Source of the DNA: Chitinophagales bacterium
Lineage (GTDB): Bacteria; Bacteroidota; Bacteroidia; Chitinophagales; UBA10324
Length of the DNA: 64,000 nt
Assembly: GCA_013816805.1 (NCBI GenBank)
Contig: JACDDS010000012.1
Span: 1-64,000, forward strand
Direction of reading: 5' to 3'
Below the pieces are notes generated by a model, which saw only the letters and a program-made list of their open reading frames with translations, made no database searches and was not told the origin of the DNA. Both the position numbers and the translations under genes were made by a program. Positions within the stretch are counted from its first letter, which is position 1; each line of letters begins with the position of its first letter. Below, piece by piece: positions 1-26,427 of this stretch.

Positions 1-377
1 GGAAAAACGTAGGGCTTTATATAATATTATTTTTAGTGGGTTTACAAACGGTACCTACACAATACTATGAAGCAGCAAAATTGGAAGGTGCTACAAAATG
101 GCAGCAATTTTACCACATTACTTTACCTATGATTAACCCTACTATTTTTATGGTAGTTATCCTGTCTACTATCGGTGGGTTTTCACTTTTCATTGAACCA
201 TACATTCTTACCGGCGGCGGACCATTGAATCAAACCTTGTCAGCGGTATTATACATTTATAAGCAGGCTTTTCAATTTTACAATATGGGATATTCGGCCA
301 CTCTTGGGTTTTTTTATGCAATCATGATCATGACTGTTGTAGTGCTTCAAAAGAAATTTATTGAAAGAGAGAGTTAA
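1..377 (+). CDS. Sugar ABC transporter permease, MalF-type (5' end outside window)
   Basis: Inner-membrane permease subunit of a carbohydrate ABC importer. The reading frame is open from the first bases of the window, so only about the last 125 residues are present and the true start lies upstream. The EAA loop that docks onto the ATPase is clear (YEAAKLEGA, then a proline-terminated helix ending ITLP), followed by two hydrophobic segments and a short charged tail. The family (binding-protein-dependent transport permease, MalF/UgpA-like) is certain. The substrate is inferred from the GH130 genes downstream to be a short beta-linked oligosaccharide, perhaps manno-oligosaccharide. A second permease starts 34 bases later and the ATPase is the sixth gene of the run. 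A solute-binding protein is expected upstream but cannot be seen. Confidence 0.93.
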   Translation, partial: KNVGLYIILFLVGLQTVPTQYYEAAKLEGATKWQQFYHITLPMINPTIFMVVILSTIGGFSLFIEPYILTGGGPLNQTLSAVLYIYKQAFQFYNMGYSATLGFFYAIMIMTVVVLQKKFIERES

Positions 378-411
378 CCATTACAAGCTGCTGTATGGCC
401 TTAAATAAATT

Positions 412-1239
412 ATGACACAAAAGATCTCATTTCAAAAACTGATGTTTTATGCAGCGTTGCTGTTAGCTGCACTTAGTTTCATTTATCCCTTTATGTGGAT
501 GGTAAGTGCTGCACTATCGCCGGAAAATGAGATCAGCAGGCTTACACTATTTCCATCTCATCCTACCCTGAGCAACTTTAAAGCAATGGTGGAAAAAATC
601 CCCATTGGCAGGTCACTGGTTAATAGCTTACTGGTAGCCACATGCACTACGGCTTTGGTGATGGTTACCGGATCTATGGTGGGATACGCCCTGGCAAAAA
701 TGAGGTTTAAAGGACGGCTTATGATTTTTTACGTGATCGTTTTTACCATGTCTCTTCCCTTTCAGATTACCTTGATTCCAAATTATATTACGATGGTGAA
801 CCTGCATTTAGTGGATACCTATCTTGCTCTTATTATGCCTTTTGCAGTCAGTGCTTTCGGTATCCTAATGTTCCGGCAGGCTTTCCAGGGACTGCCACAA
901 GCTTTGATTGATGCAGCACGGCTGGATGGTTGCAATGAATTGCAGATTATATTTAGAATTCTGTGGCCGAATATAAAACCTACGTTAATAACTGTGGCTA
1001 TCCTGACCTTTATCGGCTCCTGGAATGAAGTACTGTGGCCGCTCATCGTCATCCGTAACGAACAATTAATGACGATGCCGCAACTGGTAACCCTGTTTGT
1101 GGTAGGTGGCCGTGCAGATGCGCAGCTGGGAGTTAAGATTGCTGCAGGGGTGTTGCTTGCCGTTCCGGTTATTGTTGCGTTTCTATTTTTTCAAAAGCAC
1201 TTTATCCAGAGTATGGCTTCGGCAGGTTTAAAAGATTAA
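412..1239 (+). CDS. Carbohydrate ABC transporter permease, MalG-type
   Basis: Second inner-membrane permease of the importer, 275 residues, the usual length for MalG/UgpE-like subunits. About six hydrophobic segments are visible, the first at residues 10-32. The ATPase-contact EAA motif is DAARLDG at 167-173, followed by a WP turn. It pairs with the partial MalF-type permease upstream to form the membrane channel. The 141 bases after it hold a perfect 14-base palindrome at 1283-1296 but no T-run, so read-through into the GH130 gene is likely. The family is certain; the substrate is inferred from the neighbours. Confidence 0.95.
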   Translation: MTQKISFQKLMFYAALLLAALSFIYPFMWMVSAALSPENEISRLTLFPSHPTLSNFKAMVEKIPIGRSLVNSLLVATCTTALVMVTGSMVGYALAKMRFKGRLMIFYVIVFTMSLPFQITLIPNYITMVNLHLVDTYLALIMPFAVSAFGILMFRQAFQGLPQALIDAARLDGCNELQIIFRILWPNIKPTLITVAILTFIGSWNEVLWPLIVIRNEQLMTMPQLVTLFVVGGRADAQLGVKIAAGVLLAVPVIVAFLFFQKHFIQSMASAGLKD

Positions 1240-1380
1240 CCAGGAAATTATAAATTGACGAATCCTGCAACTCCTGCCGATGTTTCTCCGGAGAAATGCA
1301 GCAAAGAATTATAACCAGATAACTAATTTTTCAGCATCTTAAAAAATTAATTTAGTTTAAACCAGAATCGCCAACGATCG

Positions 1381-2814
1381 ATGAACATTATTAAAGATTC
1401 ATTACACTTATATGCTGATGCAAAGGCGGTAATTACTCAATTTTTATTTTTGTCACAAGAGAAGCGGATCTTTAACATGATAAATCGGGTGGAAAATTTA
1501 AGTGCTAATGAGGCAGATGAATGCCTCCAAATCCTAACCAAAGATTTTGCCGCCCGCCATCGAGATCTGGATCAAACCCTCTTGAATCATTTTCAAAAAA
1601 TAGAAGAGCAGAACGGAATTAACCTTTCCCGTTTCACTGTTGCAAAAAAACTATTGCTGGGTGCATTTTTTACAAAAGAATATTCTATACAGGCTGCAGC
1701 ATTATTTAATCCCTCCATTGTGCCCCATCCAGATCAACAAGGATTAAAGTCAGGCCAACAGCGATTTATAATGAGCCTGAGGGCAACCGGAGAAGGTCAC
1801 ATTTCTTCTATAATATTTAAAACAGGAATAGCAGACGAGAATGCCCGCATCACGCTCGACAGTTCTTCGGGCTATTTTATTTGTCTGCAAAAAAAAATTG
1901 ACACAAGATATAGCCGGGATTTTATACGAAGCCGTGCGGTATTATTTAAAGATTTTGATTTTAGCGTTGTTGATTCTTTACCGGAACATTTTTCAGAAGC
2001 GGAAGCGCTTTCTCTCCTAAAATCTGCAACAGTAAAGACGAATGTAGCGACAAACTCTATCAGCCAAATAGAAAAAATATGGGATGCTAATTACAATCTC
2101 ATAAGTTCTTCACAAATACCGATCAATGAAAAAGTAATATTTCCTGTAGCAAGAATAGAAAGCATGGGAATGGAAGATGTGAGATTTGTAAAGTTTAGTG
2201 ATAACGGTATCGCAATTTATTACGGTACTTACACTGCTTATGACGGCCATCAGATACAGTCGCAATTGATTGAAACCTCAGATTTTAATGAATTTAAAAT
2301 ACGCTCATTATACGGCGAGGCTGTATCAGACAAAGGAATGGCGCTCTTTCCTGAAAAAATAAATGGCAGATATGTGATGGTTTCACGCCAGGGTGGTGAG
2401 AATATAAGTATCATGTTTTCTGAAAATATTTATGAATGGAAAAGCTACCAGCTGTTGATGGAGCCATACTATCCATGGGAGCTGCTGCAATCAGGTAACT
2501 GCGGATCACCTGTAAAGACAGAAAGAGGCTGGCTTTTGCTGATACATGGCGTGGGCTTAATGCGCACTTATGTTATAAGCGCCATACTATTGGATCTGCA
2601 TGATCCCACTCAGATTATTGGCAGGCTTGATAAACCGCTCATCCAAGCTGATCAAGCCGAACGTGAAGGTTATGTTCCGAATGTAGTTTATACTTGTGGT
2701 TCTATGCTTCACAATAAAACACTGGTTATTCCTTATGCAGTGTCTGACTCTGCAACGGCTTTTGCAACAATAGGATTAGAAGAAATTCTCAACGAGATGA
2801 AACCTGCACCATAA
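1381..2814 (+). CDS. Glycoside hydrolase family 130 protein (beta-mannoside phosphorylase/hydrolase-like)
   Basis: Predicted cytoplasmic five-bladed beta-propeller enzyme of family GH130, whose members phosphorolyse or hydrolyse beta-mannosides. Family marks read by eye: PSIVPHPDQ at 111-119, RATGEGHISS around 134-143, GMEDVRF at 263-269 and the closing GYVPNVVYTCG block from residue 430. At 477 residues it is longer than the classical 330-400 residue phosphorylases because of an N-terminal helical extension of about 100 residues. There is no signal peptide, so it should act on sugar brought in by the ABC importer. The next gene starts 5 bases after its stop. Whether it is a phosphorylase or a hydrolase cannot be settled without aligning the phosphate-binding residues. 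Confidence 0.88.
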   Translation: MNIIKDSLHLYADAKAVITQFLFLSQEKRIFNMINRVENLSANEADECLQILTKDFAARHRDLDQTLLNHFQKIEEQNGINLSRFTVAKKLLLGAFFTKEYSIQAAALFNPSIVPHPDQQGLKSGQQRFIMSLRATGEGHISSIIFKTGIADENARITLDSSSGYFICLQKKIDTRYSRDFIRSRAVLFKDFDFSVVDSLPEHFSEAEALSLLKSATVKTNVATNSISQIEKIWDANYNLISSSQIPINEKVIFPVARIESMGMEDVRFVKFSDNGIAIYYGTYTAYDGHQIQSQLIETSDFNEFKIRSLYGEAVSDKGMALFPEKINGRYVMVSRQGGENISIMFSENIYEWKSYQLLMEPYYPWELLQSGNCGSPVKTERGWLLLIHGVGLMRTYVISAILLDLHDPTQIIGRLDKPLIQADQAEREGYVPNVVYTCGSMLHNKTLVIPYAVSDSATAFATIGLEEILNEMKPAP

Positions 2815-2819
2815 ACCTT

Positions 2820-4121
2820 ATGAATAAAAAAATACAGAGTTTATTCTATTTATCGGCACTCATAATCATGTTTATAGCCTGTTCGAAAACCGCAATGAAC
2901 CAGGCTCCGGCAGTCGATACGGAATTGGTGAATACAGCTCACCTTGATTACCTCTATACGCCTCTTACTTTTCCGGCGGGCAGCAAATCCGCGGGCGTTT
3001 ACATATATGCAGATGCCCCGGATTATCACCGTGTTGAGGCGTCTGGTGAAGGATTTTCATGTGTAGATGATGTATCAAGAGCTGCGTTAGTTTATTTGAG
3101 AAGCACCCGGTTTTCTACAGATACAGCCATCCAGGCTAAAGCTATGAACCTGATCCGCTTTATTCTGGGGATGCAATCAGATAACGGCTATTTCTATAAT
3201 TTTTTATTCTCCAGCGGACTGATAAACACAGGAGGAAGCACCAGTTTAAATATTCCTAACTGGTGGTCGTGGAGAGCCTTACAAACTTTAATAGAAGGCG
3301 AACCTTTTATAAAGAACCTAAACCCACCTTTATTTGCGCAAATGGATGCTGCAATAATTAAATTGATTGCTCAAATAAAATTAGACCTGGTCAATATCCC
3401 TCAAACAACAAAAATTGTAAATGGTATTACAGTTCCGGAATGGCTTCCCGCAGGAAGTGCCACAGATCAGTCGGCATTGCTTATTATAGGGCTAATTCCC
3501 TGGTGCCAGTCTACGAATGATGCTGTTTTAAGAGACTATATTAAAAAATTGGCAGATGGCATTGCGCTCATGCAAGCCGGTGATTCCTCTCACTATCCCT
3601 ATGGCTGTTTTTTAAGCTGGGAAAATACATGGCATGCATATGGGAACATCCAGGCTTATGCTTTATTGAAGGCGGGCCTGTTTCTGAATGATCCGCAATA
3701 CACCTCGAAAGCATTAGTAGAAATAGATAACTTTTATCCCTGGCTGATTAAGAATGGTTATAAATCTTCTCTTTTACTCGCAAAAAGTGGAAATGTATTT
3801 CAGACACTAACTGATAACAAATATGATCAGATTGCCTATGGAATAGAGCCTATGGTTTTTGCTGCAATCGAAGCCTATAAGGAAACAGGAAATGATACCT
3901 ATGCTGATCTCGCAGGGCATCTTGCTGCATGGCTCCTGGGAGCAAATGATTTAGGAATCAGTATGTATGATACAGCCACAGGCCGCTGCTACGATGGATT
4001 ATCTGCGGGTGGTGTCAACTATAATTCCGGCGCTGAATCTACCATCGAGGCATTGCTTACTTTGCAAAATGCTGAAAATTATCCGGCGGTAATAACGGCC
4101 CTGGATAAATATAAAAAATGA
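2820..4121 (+). CDS. Lipoprotein with predicted (alpha/alpha)6-barrel, glycosidase-like
   Basis: A 433-residue exported lipoprotein: hydrophobic leader ending in the lipobox FIAC with Cys21. The body is helical with repeated aromatic-rich segments, and has the motif GFSCVDDVSRAAL near residue 80, reminiscent of the DD-containing signature of (alpha/alpha)6 proteins found next to GH130 genes. This suggests a surface or periplasmic glycoside-processing or glycan-binding role that feeds the importer. The exact family is not recognised. Its last four bases (ATGA) overlap the start of the next GH130 gene, so the two are probably translationally coupled. The fold call is by inspection only. Confidence 0.7.
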   Translation: MNKKIQSLFYLSALIIMFIACSKTAMNQAPAVDTELVNTAHLDYLYTPLTFPAGSKSAGVYIYADAPDYHRVEASGEGFSCVDDVSRAALVYLRSTRFSTDTAIQAKAMNLIRFILGMQSDNGYFYNFLFSSGLINTGGSTSLNIPNWWSWRALQTLIEGEPFIKNLNPPLFAQMDAAIIKLIAQIKLDLVNIPQTTKIVNGITVPEWLPAGSATDQSALLIIGLIPWCQSTNDAVLRDYIKKLADGIALMQAGDSSHYPYGCFLSWENTWHAYGNIQAYALLKAGLFLNDPQYTSKALVEIDNFYPWLIKNGYKSSLLLAKSGNVFQTLTDNKYDQIAYGIEPMVFAAIEAYKETGNDTYADLAGHLAAWLLGANDLGISMYDTATGRCYDGLSAGGVNYNSGAESTIEALLTLQNAENYPAVITALDKYKK

Positions 4122-5260
4122 ATGCAACTCCAATAATTGCCGACCATCTGATTTTTAAACCTGGTGATGTAGAATTATCATACTCACCACTTCGCAATGG
4201 CATTAAGGAAAATACTTTTGTGCTTGGTACTTTTAATCCTGGCTTATGTCGCTTGCCGAATGGCAATTTGCTGATGATAGTACGTGTGGCGGAAGCTTTA
4301 TCAAACTCTGTTAAAGGAGACAGCGTGCACAGCATAAGATGGGATTCAGAAAAGCGATTTGTAATCGATGCATGGCCATTGATTGAAGTGGATATGAAAG
4401 ATCCAAGAAAATTCAGAATTAAAACTTATGATTTTCCTGTTTATGCATTAACGTCTCTATCATGGCTGTTGCCGGTAGAACTGAATGCCGATGGCACGGC
4501 AGTAATTAAAGTACATTACGATAAAATTATTTCACCGCAATTTACCAGTCAGGAATACGGAATAGAAGATGCCCGGATTTCAACCATTGAAAACCAGTAT
4601 TATATGACCGCTTGTTGTGTAGGCAGCGAGCGTCATTCAACGATGTTATATGTTTCAGATGATGGCCTAAATTATAAATGTCTTGGCATTGTGCTTGACC
4701 ACCAGAATAAGGATATGCTGGTATTTGAAGGAAGAATAAATAATATTTACTACGCTTTAACAAGACCATTAGGGGAAAATTATTTTGCCACGCCACCATC
4801 TTCCACTTACCATTCCTGCGCATCTGTTCAAATGTCCTCTTCACGGGATTTACTGCATTGGAAACCATCCGATACCGCATTTCTGAGGGCACGGCGATCA
4901 TCTTTATCCAATATGAAAATAGGTGGCGGAACTCCGCCTTTGTTAACACCCTACGGCTGGCTGATGCTGTATCATGGAGTTGAAAAGAAAGGTGAAGTAG
5001 GCATCTACCGCACCTTCTGGGCACTGCTGGATAAGGACGATCCGTTAAAAATTACTCGTTTGGAAGATAAAGTGCCTTTGCTGGAAGCAAATCCATTGCT
5101 TACTGATGGTATCAGCCATCAGAAATATCTTGAAGATGTTGTATTTACCACCGGTATTGTGGAACATGGCGATGATTTTATTATCGCATCCGGAGAATTA
5201 GACCTGGCATGTCGGATCACCAGGATATCAAAAAAATATTTTTCAAGCGAACACTTTTAA
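4118..5260 (+). CDS. Second glycoside hydrolase family 130-like protein
   Basis: A 380-residue predicted cytoplasmic beta-propeller, the normal length for GH130. Recognisable features are FNPG at 39-42, RVAEA at 56-60, GIEDARI at 148-154 (the family's catalytic-region motif), a TPPLLTPYGWLMLYHGV stretch around 273-289 and a C-terminal YLEDVVFTTG block. It is clearly diverged from the first GH130 protein, so the operon encodes two different specificities rather than a recent duplication. It starts inside the stop of the lipoprotein gene (ATGA) and its stop lies 5 bases before the ATPase start. Beta-mannoside phosphorolysis or hydrolysis is the family expectation; the exact substrate is unknown. 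Confidence 0.87.
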   Translation: MNATPIIADHLIFKPGDVELSYSPLRNGIKENTFVLGTFNPGLCRLPNGNLLMIVRVAEALSNSVKGDSVHSIRWDSEKRFVIDAWPLIEVDMKDPRKFRIKTYDFPVYALTSLSWLLPVELNADGTAVIKVHYDKIISPQFTSQEYGIEDARISTIENQYYMTACCVGSERHSTMLYVSDDGLNYKCLGIVLDHQNKDMLVFEGRINNIYYALTRPLGENYFATPPSSTYHSCASVQMSSSRDLLHWKPSDTAFLRARRSSLSNMKIGGGTPPLLTPYGWLMLYHGVEKKGEVGIYRTFWALLDKDDPLKITRLEDKVPLLEANPLLTDGISHQKYLEDVVFTTGIVEHGDDFIIASGELDLACRITRISKKYFSSEHF

Positions 5261-5265
5261 TAAAG

Positions 5266-6396
5266 ATGGCGGAGGTTTTATTAGAGCATATTTCAAAGAT
5301 CTATCCACGTGGTGCAAAAAAAGAAGCACCCTCTAAAGCCATTGAGGATATTTCCTTTACGGTGCACGATAAAGAATTTATGGTGATCGTAGGTCCTTCC
5401 GGCTGTGGAAAATCTACATTGCTACGGATGATTGCAGGGCTCGAAGAGATCAGTGAAGGCACTCTCAGCATAGATGGAAAAAGGATAAATGATCTGGATC
5501 CGCGCGACCGTGATATTGCAATGGTGTTTCAGAATTATGCTTTATATCCGCACATGACCGTTTATGATAACATGGCTTTCGGATTAAGATTAAAGCACTT
5601 CAGCAAAACCGAAATAAAACAAAGAGTAACTCAGACTGCCCAGCTGCTGGAAATGGAGGAGGTGCTAAATCGCAAACCAACCACTTTATCCGGAGGTCAG
5701 CGCCAGCGGGTAGCAATTGGAAGGGCTATTATCCGAAGACCTAAAGTTTTTTTATTTGATGAGCCGCTCAGCAACCTTGATGCAAAGCTTCGAAGCCAGA
5801 TGCGCATAGAACTTCAAAAGCTGCACCGCGACATCAATGCGACGATGATCTATGTAACGCATGACCAGACTGAAGCCATGACGTTAGGAAACAGGATTGC
5901 TGTGTTGAACAAAGGCAAGCTCATGCAATTGGATACTCCGCTGCATTTGTACAATAACCCGGCGAATAAATTTGTTGCGGGATTTATCGGTTCGCCTACC
6001 ATGAATTTTATGGAGGGCTCTATTGTGCGCCAGAACAGATATTCTTTTATTCCCGAAACAAAAAGTTGTCAGATTTCTTTAGGAACTTCAATTCCCGCGT
6101 CTTTAGAAAGCTATGTTGGAAAAGCTATTCTGATTGGCATACGGCCGGAGCATATTCTAATTTGTGAAGAAGGGGAAGCCAATCCAGGTGACTGTACTTT
6201 AAAAGTCCTGGCTTACGAAAACATGGGCAACGAACAACTGGTATATTTTTCCATGTCAAATCAAACACTAATTGTAAGAACCCCGCCACGCGAAATTATT
6301 GACGTTGGGAATGAAAAAGAGATTAAATTTTTAATAGAAAAAATTATTTATATGGATGCAGTGAGCGGGGCGGTAATAAATAAGAACCTGCTTTAA
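5266..6396 (+). CDS. Sugar ABC transporter ATP-binding protein, MalK/MsmK/UgpC-type
   Basis: ATPase that energises the importer. From the start chosen here (MAEVLLEH) it is 376 residues: Walker A GPSGCGKST at 43-51, ABC signature LSGGQRQRV, Walker B VFLFDEP, the switch histidine in THDQTEAM, and a C-terminal TOBE regulatory domain with the typical GIRPEH motif. An earlier in-frame ATG exists at 5209, but that would overlap the GH130 gene by 52 bases; 5266 matches the family N-terminus and lies 5 bases past the preceding stop. MsmK-like ATPases can serve several sugar permeases, so it may not be dedicated to this system. Confidence 0.96.
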   Translation: MAEVLLEHISKIYPRGAKKEAPSKAIEDISFTVHDKEFMVIVGPSGCGKSTLLRMIAGLEEISEGTLSIDGKRINDLDPRDRDIAMVFQNYALYPHMTVYDNMAFGLRLKHFSKTEIKQRVTQTAQLLEMEEVLNRKPTTLSGGQRQRVAIGRAIIRRPKVFLFDEPLSNLDAKLRSQMRIELQKLHRDINATMIYVTHDQTEAMTLGNRIAVLNKGKLMQLDTPLHLYNNPANKFVAGFIGSPTMNFMEGSIVRQNRYSFIPETKSCQISLGTSIPASLESYVGKAILIGIRPEHILICEEGEANPGDCTLKVLAYENMGNEQLVYFSMSNQTLIVRTPPREIIDVGNEKEIKFLIEKIIYMDAVSGAVINKNLL

Positions 6397-6422
6397 TTCT
6401 TCGATCCACACTTAACTGCGTA

Positions 6423-6430
6423 TAAATTTG
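6423..6430 (+). promoter_or_regulatory. Candidate Bacteroidota -7 box before the porin gene
   Basis: TAAATTTG matches the TAnnTTTG -7 element of Bacteroidota promoters and lies 25 bases before the porin ATG. No clear TTTG -33 box is found at the usual spacing, so this is only a half-supported promoter. If real, the porin can be expressed apart from the ABC operon. Confidence 0.35.
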
Positions 6431-6455
6431 AATTTAAATAGTTAAATAGCAGGCA

Positions 6456-7544
6456 ATGAAAAAGCTGACTATTTTACTATTCGTCTTTGCCCAAATGAGT
6501 GTCTTGGCGCAATCAGACAGTGTAAACCGCACGCTCACGTTTTCAGGAATGGTGGATGCTTATTTAGCATATTACACGGATTCCGTGGGAACCGGTAACT
6601 ACCAAAAATTTCAAAGTATTTCACCCAGAAGCAAGCAGTTCGGATTGAACGTTGCCTCCATCACTGTAAAATATTCTGCAGACCGCATGCGGTCAATCGT
6701 TACGCTTCACTATGGCGACATTCCCCGCAGCTCCTGGTCATCTACTTTTAACTTTATACAGGAAGCTAATGCAGGGTTTCGGATTTATAAAAATTTATGG
6801 ATCGATGGCGGATTCTTCCGTACGCATATTGGAACGGAAGGGCTTTTTCCTAAAGAAAATATAACCAGCTCTGTAGCTGTGGCTACTTTTTTTGAACCTT
6901 ATTTCGAGGCAGGATTCCGATTAAATTATACGCCAACGGATAAGTTACTGCTCAACCTTTATTTGCTAAACGGGTATAACCTCTATGAGGATAATAACAA
7001 AAAAAAATCGATCGGACTTTTCGCTGCCTATACTGTTAACGACGCTGTTAGCATCGGGTATAATAATTACCTGGGAAACGATGCAGCAGAAGACGATACC
7101 GTTTCACGCACCCGGTTTTACAACAATGTGTTTTTAAATTTTCAGAAAGGAAAAATCAGGATGGTTGCCGGTGCCGATTTAGCTGTACAACAGCATGGTG
7201 ACCTCAAGAACGCAGAAAAATCTGCAAGCTATGCAAGTGCTTTGCTGGCCCTTCGCTACCAGGCAGTAAACCGGTTTGGCATTTACGGCAGAGGAGAAGT
7301 CTTCCACGATCCGCAGGGAATGTTATCAGGTGTGTTCTTGAATGAAGGAAATGAATTTTCGGGTATAAAGCTCTGGGGCATCACACTCGGTGCAGAGTAT
7401 AAGCCAACGGATAATTTTTATGTGCGGCTCGAAGGTAGAAATCTTACCGCAGATTCAGGTCAGAAAATTTTTTATTCAGATACTAAGTCAACGAATCACA
7501 GGCTGGAAGCGATGCTGAATTTCGGTTTGTATTTTCCACAGTAA
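6456..7544 (+). CDS. Outer-membrane beta-barrel porin (BBP2-like)
   Basis: A 362-residue protein with a signal peptide (hydrophobic residues 4-16, cleavage after LAQ around residue 19). The body is made of alternating hydrophobic/polar strands rich in Tyr, Asn and Gly and ends in an aromatic residue close to the C-terminus (FGLYFPQ), as in outer-membrane barrels. It resembles the porin family that begins GMVDAYLAYY in Bacteroidota. It sits 59 bases behind the ABC ATPase, so it plausibly provides the outer-membrane entry port for the sugar taken up by that system, the job that SusC does elsewhere in the phylum. The function is inferred from position. Confidence 0.75.
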   Translation: MKKLTILLFVFAQMSVLAQSDSVNRTLTFSGMVDAYLAYYTDSVGTGNYQKFQSISPRSKQFGLNVASITVKYSADRMRSIVTLHYGDIPRSSWSSTFNFIQEANAGFRIYKNLWIDGGFFRTHIGTEGLFPKENITSSVAVATFFEPYFEAGFRLNYTPTDKLLLNLYLLNGYNLYEDNNKKKSIGLFAAYTVNDAVSIGYNNYLGNDAAEDDTVSRTRFYNNVFLNFQKGKIRMVAGADLAVQQHGDLKNAEKSASYASALLALRYQAVNRFGIYGRGEVFHDPQGMLSGVFLNEGNEFSGIKLWGITLGAEYKPTDNFYVRLEGRNLTADSGQKIFYSDTKSTNHRLEAMLNFGLYFPQ

Positions 7545-7617: not shown

Positions 7618-8820
7618 ATGCAATTTACCCATACAGAAAATAAACCAAGATATTCCCTCCGGCAACTTGTACTCTATTTTTTGAAGCTGGGTTATGCGGG
7701 CTTCGGAGGCCCCGTTGCATTGGTAGGCTATATGCACCGTGATCTTGTCGAGCAGCGTAAATGGATTTCAGAAGAAGATTACAAGGAAGGCTTAACCCTT
7801 TCACAGCTTGCGCCCGGTCCATTGGCGGCACAGCTTGGTATTTATTTGGGCTTCGTGCATTACCGCTACCTAGGAGCCACATTAGTTGCCATTGCTTTCG
7901 TGCTGCCATCTTTTTTAATGGTAGTCGCTTTGGGAATTGCTTACAAGATGTTCAACGGTTTGCCCTGGATGCAGGCCGTTTTTTATGGAGTAGGAGCAGC
8001 AGTGATTGGAATAATTGTGATGAGCAGCTACAAACTCACCACAAAATCAATTGGCAAATTCAATCTTGAATCATTCAGAACAAAATGGATGTTATGGCTT
8101 TTCTTTCTCACCACTTTAGTCATCACGCTCATTTCACAAACGGAAGTGCTTCCGGTTTTCCTTGCAGCGGGGCTATTGTATATGTTCATAAAAGCACCAC
8201 CGGCATGGGCAAAAAGAACTTCAACACTACCGGTTATGCTTCTGACGGGAATTGGTTTTTGGGACTATGATTCGAAAGCACTGGGACAAATGTTTTGGTT
8301 TTTCCTTAAAGCAGGAGCGTTTGTTTTTGGAAGTGGCCTGGCGATCATTCCTTTTTTACATGGAGCCGTTACCCAGTACCATTGGATTGACGAGCATACT
8401 TTTCTCGATGCAGTAGCGGTGGCGATGATCACGCCGGGGCCCGTGGTGATCACAGTAGGTTTCATTGGTTACTTAGTGGCTGGTTTCCCAGGTGCCTGTA
8501 TCGCCGCAGCGTGCACGTTTCTTCCCTGTTATTTCTTTACCGTGATTCCCGCGCCCTATTTTAAGAGGTATGCTAAGAATGCATCCATCAAAGCATTTGT
8601 TGACGGCATTACCGCTGCAGTAATCGGAGCACTCACCGGAGCTGTAATTATTATTGCAATAAATACTTTCACGAGGAACCCTAGCGTGATTCTCGATATA
8701 CCTTCCGTACTCATTGCAGTAGCAACTGTCCTGACGCTATTGTATGTAAAAAAAATTCAGGAACCATATATCATTTTTATCGCCGCTGTCTTGGGTTTGA
8801 TTTTAAAGACGTGGGTTTAA
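7618..8820 (+). CDS. chrA: Chromate efflux transporter ChrA
   Basis: Inner-membrane exporter of the CHR family that lowers cytoplasmic chromate. At 400 residues it is a full-length two-domain ChrA: both halves carry the family pattern, with GYAGFGGPVALVGYMH near residue 24 and a second FGSGLAIIPFLHGAV with ITPGPVVITVGFIGY in the C-terminal half. About ten membrane segments are visible. The C-terminal third and 100 bases of its 3' flank recur as a diverged fragment at 15614-16279. Single-copy bidomain chrA genes are usual in this phylum and typically sit in metal-resistance regions, as here. Confidence 0.95.
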   Translation: MQFTHTENKPRYSLRQLVLYFLKLGYAGFGGPVALVGYMHRDLVEQRKWISEEDYKEGLTLSQLAPGPLAAQLGIYLGFVHYRYLGATLVAIAFVLPSFLMVVALGIAYKMFNGLPWMQAVFYGVGAAVIGIIVMSSYKLTTKSIGKFNLESFRTKWMLWLFFLTTLVITLISQTEVLPVFLAAGLLYMFIKAPPAWAKRTSTLPVMLLTGIGFWDYDSKALGQMFWFFLKAGAFVFGSGLAIIPFLHGAVTQYHWIDEHTFLDAVAVAMITPGPVVITVGFIGYLVAGFPGACIAAACTFLPCYFFTVIPAPYFKRYAKNASIKAFVDGITAAVIGALTGAVIIIAINTFTRNPSVILDIPSVLIAVATVLTLLYVKKIQEPYIIFIAAVLGLILKTWV

Positions 8821-8920
8821 ATAGCTCGAATCGACTATAGGAGAAACTAACTCTTTGAAAGATTAAGCAGCACAGAAGAGCCTGTCTCCATACAGAAATT
8901 TCTTCTTTATCATTACACCG
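8265..8920 (+). repeat. Direct repeat, copy 1: chrA 3' third plus flank
   Basis: This stretch is repeated in the same direction at 15614-16279. It covers the last third of chrA and about 100 non-coding bases, in which a two-part stem (GAAG/CTTC around CTGT/ACAG, 8875-8905) is conserved. Together the two copies bracket the DUF6660-czcA-czcB block. Confidence 0.8.
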
Positions 8921-15329: not shown

Positions 15330-15641
15330 GTGAAAAAAATGAAGTTACCTTTCAAAGACAAAAAATTCATTCTGCTGCTCTCATCAGTAGTCATTGTGAT
15401 AGTATTAGAAATACTCTCGCTAACGGGTATTCATATTCCAATGCCTTATGCTCCATTCGTTTTTGCAGCTTTTATTTTCTCAATAGGCTATAAGGGAATT
15501 TGGAATGGATTAAGGTCGCTTGCCAAAATCAATTTCAGCAGTATTAATTTATTGATGCTGATTGGGGTAGCAGGCGCTTTTTATTTAGGCGAATATCCCG
15601 AGGCAGCAGTAGCTTTTGGGATTATGACTCAAAAACCTTAG
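15330..15641 (+). pseudogene. Heavy-metal P-type ATPase, N-terminal remnant
   Basis: Begins as a Zn/Cd/Pb-type P1B ATPase: the first 96 or so residues carry two or three membrane segments and the typical block NFSSINLLMLIGVAGAFYLG followed by EAAVAF. The similarity then stops abruptly at TTTTGGGA (15614-15621), where chrA sequence takes over in another frame, and the frame ends after six foreign codons. The actuator, phosphorylation and nucleotide domains are all missing, so it cannot pump. It was probably the third gene of the czc operon before the rearrangement. Confidence 0.85.
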
Positions 15642-16183
15642 GTCAGATTGCACTGTTCTTTACCAAAGCAGGTGCCTTTGTTTTTGGAAGTGGCCTGGCA
15701 ATCATACCTTTTTTGCATGGCGCTGTTACGCAGTACCATTGGATTGATGAGCACACGTTTCTCGATGCCGTTGCTGTAGCAATGATTACCCCCGGACCTG
15801 TTGTAATCACTGTGGGTTTCATTGGTTATTTAGCTGCCGGCTTTCCAGGTGCCTGTATCGCCGCAGCGTGTACGTTTCTTCCCTGTTATTTTTTTACGGT
15901 TATACCTGCACCCTACTTTAAGAAGTATGCAAAGAACGCAAGCATCAAGGCCTTCGTGGACGGCATTACAGCAGCCGTGATCGGCGCACTCACTGGAGCC
16001 GTAGTCATTATTGCCATAAATACATTTACCCGCAACCACACAGTGGTGGTTGATATTCCTTCTGTACTTATTGCAGTGGCAATTGTCCTGACGCTATTGT
16101 ATATAAAAAAAATTCAGGAACCATATATTATTTTTATCGCCGCTGTCTTGGGTTTGATTTTAAAAACGTGGGTTTTTAAATAA
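15614..16183 (+). pseudogene. chrA 3' fragment (second chromate transporter copy)
   Basis: The last 189 codons of a chrA gene, open from the junction (FWDYDSKTLGQ) to the stop with no frameshift. The protein is about 93% identical by eye to the C-terminal half of the intact chrA at 7618-8820. It lacks the whole N-terminal half and any natural start; an internal ATG at 15713 could give a 156-residue product, but there is no reason to think this works. DNA identity is patchy: near-identical tracts alternate with stretches where almost every codon differs at the third base. It is fused at its left end to the P-type ATPase remnant. Confidence 0.88.
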
Positions 16184-16279
16184 GCCAAATCGACTCTAAG
16201 AGGAGTTCACTCTTTGATAGTATTCACCAGCACTGAAGAGTCTGTCTCCATACAGAAATTCTTCATTATTATTACACCC
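15614..16279 (+). repeat. Direct repeat, copy 2: chrA 3' third plus flank
   Basis: Same orientation as 8265-8920. The homology continues past the stop codon through the conserved stem (GAAG 16235-16238, CTGT 16242-16245, ACAG 16252-16255, CTTC 16261-16264) to ATTACACC at 16271-16278. Confidence 0.8.
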
Positions 16280-25544: not shown

Positions 25545-25789
25545 TGGCGCAAGCGTCCGCTTGTGCCTGATTAATTTCAGCAAATTTTCGATAAGCAGCA
25601 AATATAAAATTCTTGAACAGATGAAATTCTATTTCGTTTCTTTTGCAGTAATTAACCCGATAAGTCTGTAGAGCAGGGATGAGTATAAAACATTCCTACC
25701 CGACATTGTGCAAGAAATTATGCAGGAGAAATTAAGGAACTAAGAATAGTTTGCCGGGATTACAGCGGCACTAGCGGACGCTTGCGCCA
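25545..25789. mobile_element. MITE-like element, complete copy (245 bp)
   Basis: A non-coding element bounded by 23-base inverted terminal repeats that match at 22 positions: the left end starts TGGCGCAAGCGTCCGC (25545-25567) and the right end is its complement (25767-25789). No transposase is encoded and no clear target duplication is seen. A second, diverged copy lies 380 bases downstream in the same orientation. It was probably moved in trans by an unidentified transposase. Confidence 0.75.
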
Positions 25790-25842
25790 CTAAGAGGGTG
25801 AAAATCTTTTGGCGACAGTGAGACCATCAACGGCTACAATGG

Positions 25843-26133: not shown

Positions 26134-26170
26134 CTACACCAACAAAGCGGGTATGCAGCTTATCGAGTAG

Positions 26171-26389
26171 CCTGTGCCTGAATAATTAATTTCAGCAAAC
26201 TTTAGATAAGCAAGAAATATACAATTCTTGACCAGCCGAAACTCTATTTCTTTCCTTCGCAGTAGTTAGCTGGGTAGATCTGTTTATCAGGAATGAGCAA
26301 AAACATTTTACTCGGCACAGTGCAGGAGAATGCAGATTACTCAAAATAGTTTTGCTCGATGACAGTGTCACAAGCGGACGCTTGCGCCA
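26171..26389. mobile_element. MITE-like element, second copy with eroded left end
   Basis: Aligns along its length with 25561-25789 at roughly 70% identity by eye (GTGCCTGA, TTTCAGCAAA, ATTCTTGA, GGAATGAG and TGCAGGAGAA recur in order). The right terminal repeat is intact (26367-26389, 22 of 23 bases matching the left end of the first copy), but the left terminal repeat is missing. Higher divergence than between the two ends of copy 1 suggests an older insertion. Confidence 0.65.
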
Positions 26390-26427
26390 GGAAGGGGGAT
26401 ACGAAAAGGCTATGCCGCATTACATAT

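Follow-up and report, generated by a model that had tools for sequence, protein, structure and literature searches.

A Chitinophagales gene cluster joining SusCD, a CUT1-type ABC importer and two dissimilar GH130 proteins, probably for short beta-mannosides

The window analysed here is a stretch of 64,000 nucleotides from a Chitinophagales bacterium (assembly GCA_013816805.1, contig JACDDS010000012.1, positions 1 to 64,000 of the forward strand). It opens at the start of its contig, referred to below as C12, which has 131,295 bases in a genome of 3.57 Mb and 31 contigs. The genes considered lie at this contig start and encode parts of a MalFGK-type ATP-binding cassette (ABC) importer, two proteins of glycoside hydrolase family GH130 (designated GH130a and GH130b), a lipoprotein and a porin:

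3-377, + strand: MalF-type permease, C-terminal 124 residues, cut by the contig start (Pfam BPD_transp_1)
412-1239, + strand: MalG-type permease (Pfam BPD_transp_1)
1381-2814, + strand: GH130a, 477 residues, no signal peptide seen by eye (Pfam Glyco_hydro_130)
2820-4121, + strand: lipoprotein with a predicted (alpha/alpha)6 toroid fold, relative of PDB entry 7tem, proposed exported depolymerase
4118-5260, + strand: GH130b, nearest to Lin0857 and Uhgb_MS (Pfam Glyco_hydro_130)
5266-6396, + strand: ATPase of the MalK/UgpC type with an OB domain, protein start MAEV (Pfam ABC_tran and OB_MalK)
6456-7544, + strand: BBP2 (OmpL-like) porin, on the same strand and outside the conserved unit (Pfam BBP2)

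The reading frames and their Pfam kinds agree with an earlier note on this DNA, which described a MalFGK-type importer joined to two dissimilar GH130 proteins. These share 30% identity across about 210 residues, and each matches PF04041 above the cut-off and carries the catalytic Asp in a GxEDxR-like motif. The description of the intervening gene as an (alpha/alpha)6-like lipoprotein was likewise borne out, by a lipobox-like start (MFIAC) in the sequence and by the predicted fold. The tight coupling claimed for the whole row proved to be limited to the four genes GH130a-lipoprotein-GH130b-MalK, with gaps of 5 bases between GH130a and the lipoprotein gene and between GH130b and MalK, and with a single ATGA overlap (4118-4121, lipoprotein/GH130b); spacing is looser for MalF-MalG (34 bases), MalG-GH130a (141) and MalK-porin (59). 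The MalK start was placed at the ATG at 5266, a longer frame from 5209 missing the conserved start position. Promoter and terminator scans gave counts near those of shuffled sequence (25 against 19.8, standard deviation 4.5; 10 against 6.9, standard deviation 2.7). No further copy of the operon turned up elsewhere in the genome: the two halves of MalF and the solute-binding protein described below occur once each, and GH130 only as the pair on C12.

The upstream half of the cluster appears to lie at the right end of another contig of the assembly, C10, which we infer to adjoin C12. A solute-binding protein (SBP), which the earlier note had proposed to seek upstream, is encoded at C10:149,480-150,805; it is the genome's only SBP_bac_8 match and stands 2.2 kb from the contig end. 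The order there is SusC, SusD, a LamG protein with FIVAR, a further LamG protein, SBP, a small protein of the 23S-IVP type, a Gfo/Idh/MocA oxidoreductase and the N-terminal part of MalF (L068:12409-13020, on C10; L numbers denote the stretches compared). MalF runs to about residue 205 on C10 and begins from residue 178 on C12, where its part shows 93% identity with residues 178-300 of a relative's MalF; the whole genome holds a single N-terminal and a single C-terminal part, and in relatives too the former is less and the latter more conserved. This pattern and base composition fit one genome and one malF gene: tetranucleotide fit is 0.905 for the C10 end and 0.896 for C12 at 64-84 kb, the 17 other contigs sampled ranging from 0.651 to 0.912. 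That C12 is a foreign contig was considered and is not favoured, given its normal tetranucleotide profiles and a MalF conservation pattern like that of relatives. Over the window and C10, if these adjoin as presumed, the components of a CUT1/MalFGK importer are present (SBP, two BPD permeases and a MalK with an OB domain), and C10 carries a SusCD polysaccharide-utilisation locus, in which SusC, with TonB plug and barrel, neighbours SusD and glycan enzymes accompany the pair. The small gene between SBP and oxidoreductase (L068:10897-11247) is of the 23S-rRNA-intervening-sequence type; a related stretch, L070, has no room for it.

Conservation of this unit was followed in loci carrying relatives of the lipoprotein, which came from a pattern-based scan of contigs (72 stretches, 49 relatives) and are not a random sample; many stop at contig ends, so that absences from them are not firm. 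Nor are all stretches independent, L095 resembling L022 and L098 resembling L021, while L019 and L070 stem from one contig, as do L020 and L069; L095-L099 lie outside the count of 49. GH130 is present at 41 of these 49 loci, an ABC permease at 35 and both at 29; eight have a major facilitator superfamily (MFS) carrier with no ABC permease, and eight a GH2 relative. The six-gene order MalF-MalG-GH130a-lipoprotein-GH130b-MalK, for which the earlier note had suggested a search in other genomes, recurs exactly at six loci (L019, L022, L024, L027, L033, L052), Flavisolibacter ginsengisoli among them. The closest relatives of the operon are in two Chitinophagales metagenome-assembled genomes (MAGs) of the same family (L019, L020).

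Among 248 genomes from the order, 46 matched the lipoprotein at E 1e-3: 16 across the greater part of the protein at E <1e-60, and the remaining 30 by short, mostly C-terminal stretches. Close relatives of MalG (E <=1e-60) occur in 15 of the 248 genomes, all within the 16 with a close lipoprotein, a co-occurrence that exceeds chance. In 14 of these 15 genomes a single contig holds both genes, at a distance of 1.26-1.58 kb, and in the last they are on separate contigs; this distance leaves room for GH130a, which is indeed present in the four examples fetched with MalG (L095, L096, L097, L099). In a sample of the phylum the lipoprotein was found in 24 of 296 genomes at E 1e-40. At two loci (L013, G011:C386; L014, G007:C122) a GH130 gene is directly followed by one for a long GT4-type glycosyltransferase protein (frames of 795-802 residues with an LDDNARA motif, the GT4 part identified by Pfam for L014), whose C-terminal part matches the lipoprotein; weak lipoprotein matches similar to these fusions occur in about 30 of the 248 genomes.

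The earlier note had drawn a contrast between ABC import and SusCD, and had let the porin replace SusC; neither survives the comparison. SusC and SusD stand upstream of the SBP on C10, which argues that the ABC importer belongs with SusCD, both being present in one cluster. The same genes are contiguous in other Chitinophagaceae, in the order SusC-SusD-SBP-MocA-MalF-MalG-GH130a-lipoprotein-GH130b-MalK (with LamG in some), whole in L095 and with SusC clipped by the end of the stretch in L022, L024 and L027. Of the 49 lipoprotein loci 21 have SusC/SusD-type genes, among them 11 of the 35 that carry ABC permeases. The BBP2 porin gene does begin just past malK on the same strand, at the 59-base distance given above, and could on that account be thought to serve the importer in place of SusC; we consider this very improbable, as a BBP2 porin was found at none of the 49 loci (many of whose stretches end early) and as SusC/SusD genes recur beside the ABC importer. 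The candidate was thus set aside, and the porin is a neighbour of the importer, not its outer-membrane partner.

The two GH130 proteins differ in their affinities and in their conserved residues. The model of GH130a (predicted local distance difference test score, pLDDT, 92.8) has about 90 mostly helical N-terminal residues, a beta-propeller and a helical insert between blades, and its nearest solved folds are Teth514_1788 and Teth514_1789, while GH130b scores best with Lin0857. A tree and position table were built from 38 rows (33 from the window or loci, of which L024b had an in-frame stop read as X, and five characterised chains, with Teth rows that are partial and make up two of the five, one beta-1,4 row, and a midpoint root). 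In the tree GH130b groups with Lin0857, Uhgb_MS and enzymes of Ferruginibacter, Yersinia, Serratia and Sphingomonas (support 98/95), and GH130a with Teth514_1788/1789 at 93/82, below the program's 95/80 mark. The placement in a family tree that the earlier note had called for therefore makes beta-1,2-mannoside phosphorylases the nearest neighbours of both, though the branches are very long and GH130a has the lower support just given.

The position table shows four residues common to both proteins: catalytic Asp, NKD/DKG Lys, one Arg and one His. GH130b retains the catalytic Asp and the NKD Lys together with the Arg, Lys and His columns. Where Lin0857 has a His before the Arg, GH130b has Thr, most GH130a proteins have Ser or Gly and TM1225 has Asn. 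In GH130a, Gln370 is invariant, in 14 of 14 rows of the position table and in 21 of 21 of a larger GH130a set (the window and 20 loci). The corresponding column, which from the alignment we take to be one of three basic residues of the phosphate site, is Lys or Arg in all 24 other GH130 rows, including Lin0857, Uhgb_MS, both Teth enzymes, TM1225 and GH130b. The NKD Lys is presumably, on the same grounds, the equivalent of Lys199 in BT3780. According to Cuskin et al. (PMC4599007), GH130 phosphorylases bind phosphate with three basic residues, hydrolases carrying Glu instead, and a Lys that both Teth enzymes share, Lys199 in BT3780, is the mark of beta-1,2 specificity. With Gln in place of Lys/Arg, while hydrolases have Glu, GH130a thus fits by its sequence the standard picture of neither a phosphorylase nor a hydrolase, and it offers a natural test of the residues that a mannoside phosphorylase requires.

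The lipoprotein matches no Pfam or NCBIfam family at E 0.001. It is a member, over full-length sequence and fold, of the family of the exported protein YPO2471 (PDB 7tem; E 8e-84, 40% identity), to which its model (pLDDT 91.4) aligns with Z 60.3 over 397 residues. In the fold searches made, the next-best matches are AGE epimerases, at Z about 30, followed by GH76 and GH9-type enzymes, at Z about 26, all with about 10% identity, Foldseek ranking a GH9 exo-glucosaminidase first after 7tem. With the known (alpha/alpha)6 families GH9, GH76, GH88 and GH127 the fold is shared at about 8-15% identity, with no sequence-family match; many sugar enzymes have it, and the reaction cannot be read from it. 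An alignment of 30 lipoproteins (the window and 29 of the 49 loci) shows, among other invariant residues, E77, D83, D84, R87, D216, H272, Y340, D392, E406 and E410. AGE epimerases have a catalytic His pair; the invariant His residues of the lipoprotein family are H41 and H272. The position of D83/D84 early and of E406/E410 late in the domain gives an impression, though only that, of a GH9-like placement. Because of its export signal, its invariant acids and its frequent company of GH130, the lipoprotein is most likely an exported glycosidase, probably a depolymerase.

A search of the open literature found no paper on the function of YPO2471/7tem, the solitary close solved relative, and no function for either protein. 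7tem is named in an AlphaFold comparison and YPO2474 in a Yersinia expression study, neither dealing with function. The titles and abstract openings searched in the open literature name no dedicated beta-1,2-mannan depolymerase. It is a tentative proposal that the lipoprotein represents a glycoside hydrolase family not yet described, whose members would be exported beta-mannan depolymerases (probably beta-1,2) of (alpha/alpha)6 fold that feed the GH130 proteins, with GH130a altered in mechanism. If so, such a depolymerase would feed GH130s in Bacteroidota, Ignavibacteria, Sphingomonas and Yersiniaceae, and the related domain fused to GT4 beside GH130 would suggest that some bacteria synthesise a glycan of this kind as well. 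In any case a family that is structurally solved and functionally blank is here placed beside GH130 proteins in Bacteroidota, Ignavibacteria and Pseudomonadota, which affords a cheap test for an exported beta-mannan enzyme.

The nature of the sugar is suggested by the binding protein and by other loci. The best solved relative of the SBP is Listeria Lmo0859 (E 4e-46; the next, 2e-15). The corresponding locus of Listeria monocytogenes (L100) has a divergent LacI-type gene and the order SBP-MalF-MalG-GH13-DUF1861-GH130-phosphohexomutase (PGM_PMM domains), its GH130 being 98% identical to Lin0857. PMC8950772 describes Lin0857 as a characterised beta-1,2-mannobiose phosphorylase, and Uhgb_MS as forming beta-1,2-mannobiose from alpha-mannose 1-phosphate and mannose. 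Maltose was rejected as the sugar of the Lmo0859 transporter, since it enters by another transporter according to PMC2860498. The set SBP-MalFG-GH13-GH130-DUF1861 accompanies the lipoprotein in Serratia oryzae and at two Yersinia loci out of three; the third, of Y. similis, has no GH13 match. At an Enterobacter locus of the Listeria type a phosphomannomutase/phosphoglucomutase is annotated alongside; the genome studied here has two genes of this phosphoglucomutase/phosphomannomutase (PGM/PMM) kind. GH130 proteins like Uhgb_MS occur at eight of the 49 lipoprotein loci (E 5e-159 for L026) and ones like Lin0857 at six (E 5e-106 in one). Together, the Lmo0859-like SBP, the Lin0857-like GH130 of Listeria and the loci with Uhgb_MS-like GH130 favour beta-1,2-mannosides. 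A short beta-mannoside, probably with beta-1,2 linkage, is the most likely sugar, although the GH130c proteins (a further type, discussed below) and GH2 relatives of other clusters leave some room for mixed linkages. A search of the literature on DUF1861 and on the gene context of Uhgb_MS, within what is openly available, found nothing relevant.

From gene identities, order, conservation, family placement and conserved residues, all of which rest on sequence, we judge with somewhat better than even confidence that this is a polysaccharide-utilisation cluster for short, most likely beta-1,2-linked, beta-mannosides, in which SusCD serves the outer membrane and a CUT1 ABC importer the inner one. 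Outside the cytoplasm, the glycan would be acted on by the LamG proteins and by the lipoprotein, as the putative exported (alpha/alpha)6 enzyme; SusCD would carry fragments into the periplasm, and the binding protein with MalFGK would bring them into the cytoplasm. There GH130b, and probably also GH130a, would cleave them to alpha-mannose 1-phosphate, which a phosphohexomutase would pass into metabolism. The route of import and phosphorolysis of a short beta-mannoside put forward in the earlier note thus stays the best reading, on the SBP, the CUT1 components and the tree; that both GH130 proteins are phosphorylases is less sure, given the Gln found throughout GH130a.

Several observations weigh against this interpretation. 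The stems of the GH130 branches are about 2 changes per site long (2.09 and 1.92), which makes it unsafe to transfer an activity from the tree, and GH130a is without one conserved basic residue (Gln370). The ends of C10 and C12 overlap by 86 bases in coding register (window 1-86 with C10:152934-153019) at just 72% identity, which casts some doubt on their presumed adjacency; such a match is too divergent for a normal assembly overlap. No GH130 was found in the examined stretch of eight of the 49 lipoprotein loci: L034-L037, L045 and L047 (Larkinella, Spirosoma and a Spirosomataceae MAG) have SBP, MalFGK and the lipoprotein, and L021 and L038 have SusCD only. A third type, GH130c, with RN instead of NKD and with Teth514_1788 and TM1225 as best hits, occurs at six of the 49 loci, so that the linkage may be mixed, and GH13 is found at the Serratia, two Yersinia, Enterobacter and Listeria loci and at one Flavobacterium locus, suggesting an alpha-glucosyl part in some substrates.

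Two other substrates can be accommodated by the same genes. The architecture could serve a beta-1,4- or mixed-linkage mannoside, such as mannosyl-glucose or gluco- or mannan fragments, an alternative to which we allow a minor but appreciable share of probability. It gains from GH130c, which matches TM1225 at E 1e-31 and mannosyl-glucose phosphorylases at E 1e-24 and 1e-21, from the GH2 relatives noted above (three of the eight were scanned, with an Ig_mannosidase domain in L039 and L049 and none in L040) and from the long branches of GH130a and GH130b. It loses from the NKD/DKG column, where GH130a and GH130b have Lys and not the Arg of TM1225 and GH130c (NKD/NRN), and from the nearest characterised rows and the SBP, which point toward beta-1,2 systems. 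Scanning of locus proteins, which took in part of the open reading frames, revealed no mannanase family, a further point against beta-1,4 linkage, and no alpha-mannosidase family. The latter absence bears on a somewhat less probable alternative, a heteroglycan, such as fungal mannan caps or an alpha-glucosyl mannoside, that contains beta-mannose among other components and in which the lipoprotein would cut a non-mannosidic or alpha bond. The fold would suit this, as it also matches GH76 alpha-mannanases and AGE epimerases with the Z values given above, and so would the GH13 genes adjoining GH130 in Serratia, Yersinia, Enterobacter and Listeria; but such a GH13 is present at four of the 49 lipoprotein loci, one alone of them in Bacteroidota (L055).

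Thermoanaerobacter sp. X-514 is a thermophilic member of the Bacillota. Its beta-1,2-mannoside cluster, Teth514_1785-1796, is the nearest characterised arrangement, and the combination of an ABC sugar importer with two GH130 phosphorylases is already known from it, one enzyme of the pair acting at a degree of polymerisation of 3 and up and the other on the disaccharide (PMC4264767). GH130a adjoins Teth514_1788/1789 in the tree. Unlike the cluster described here, that of Thermoanaerobacter includes genes for GH5, GT4 and mannose-1-phosphate guanylyltransferase, and SusCD is not named in the accessible portion of the paper (PMC4264767). The locus of the Listeria Lin0857/Lmo0859 type (L100) and its Serratia, Yersinia and Enterobacter relatives (L057, L061, L101) also combine SBP-MalF-MalG with GH130, but with a single GH130 and with GH13, accompanied by DUF1861 in Listeria, Serratia and Yersinia pekkanenii and without it in Enterobacter; a lipoprotein relative is present in the Serratia and Yersinia loci and was not detected in L100 or L101. 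A third group, of Bacteroidota (L025, L026, L028-L032, L055), shares SusCD-type genes and the lipoprotein family and has a Uhgb_MS-like GH130, but carries an MFS carrier, with no ABC permease found in the stretch; these loci possibly represent the same pathway with another inner-membrane carrier. The open literature searched yielded no paper on this cluster, and no description of the union with SusCD in Bacteroidota, of the exported (alpha/alpha)6 protein or of the altered GH130a. SusCD on the outside and a binding-protein-dependent ABC importer on the inside, often treated as alternatives, are here joined in one conserved cluster.

Some further features of the window and of the records may be added. 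The 3' part of a chromate transporter gene is duplicated (15614-16278 against 8257-8919, 82% identity; regions 7618-8919 and 15330-16278), apparent metal-efflux genes lie between the copies, and the tetranucleotide fit is slightly reduced, to 0.788, over 7.6-20 kb. A frame of 103 residues with no Pfam match (15330-15641) runs into the second copy and looks like the start of a P-type ATPase. L100 (2.9 Mb, Listeria) and L101 (0.6 Mb, Enterobacter, with metE, ubiE and udp), filed as plasmids, resemble chromosomes or pieces of them. Finally, a repeat of about 240 bases occurs in the window in two copies of 74% identity, at 25559-25798 and 26170-26398.

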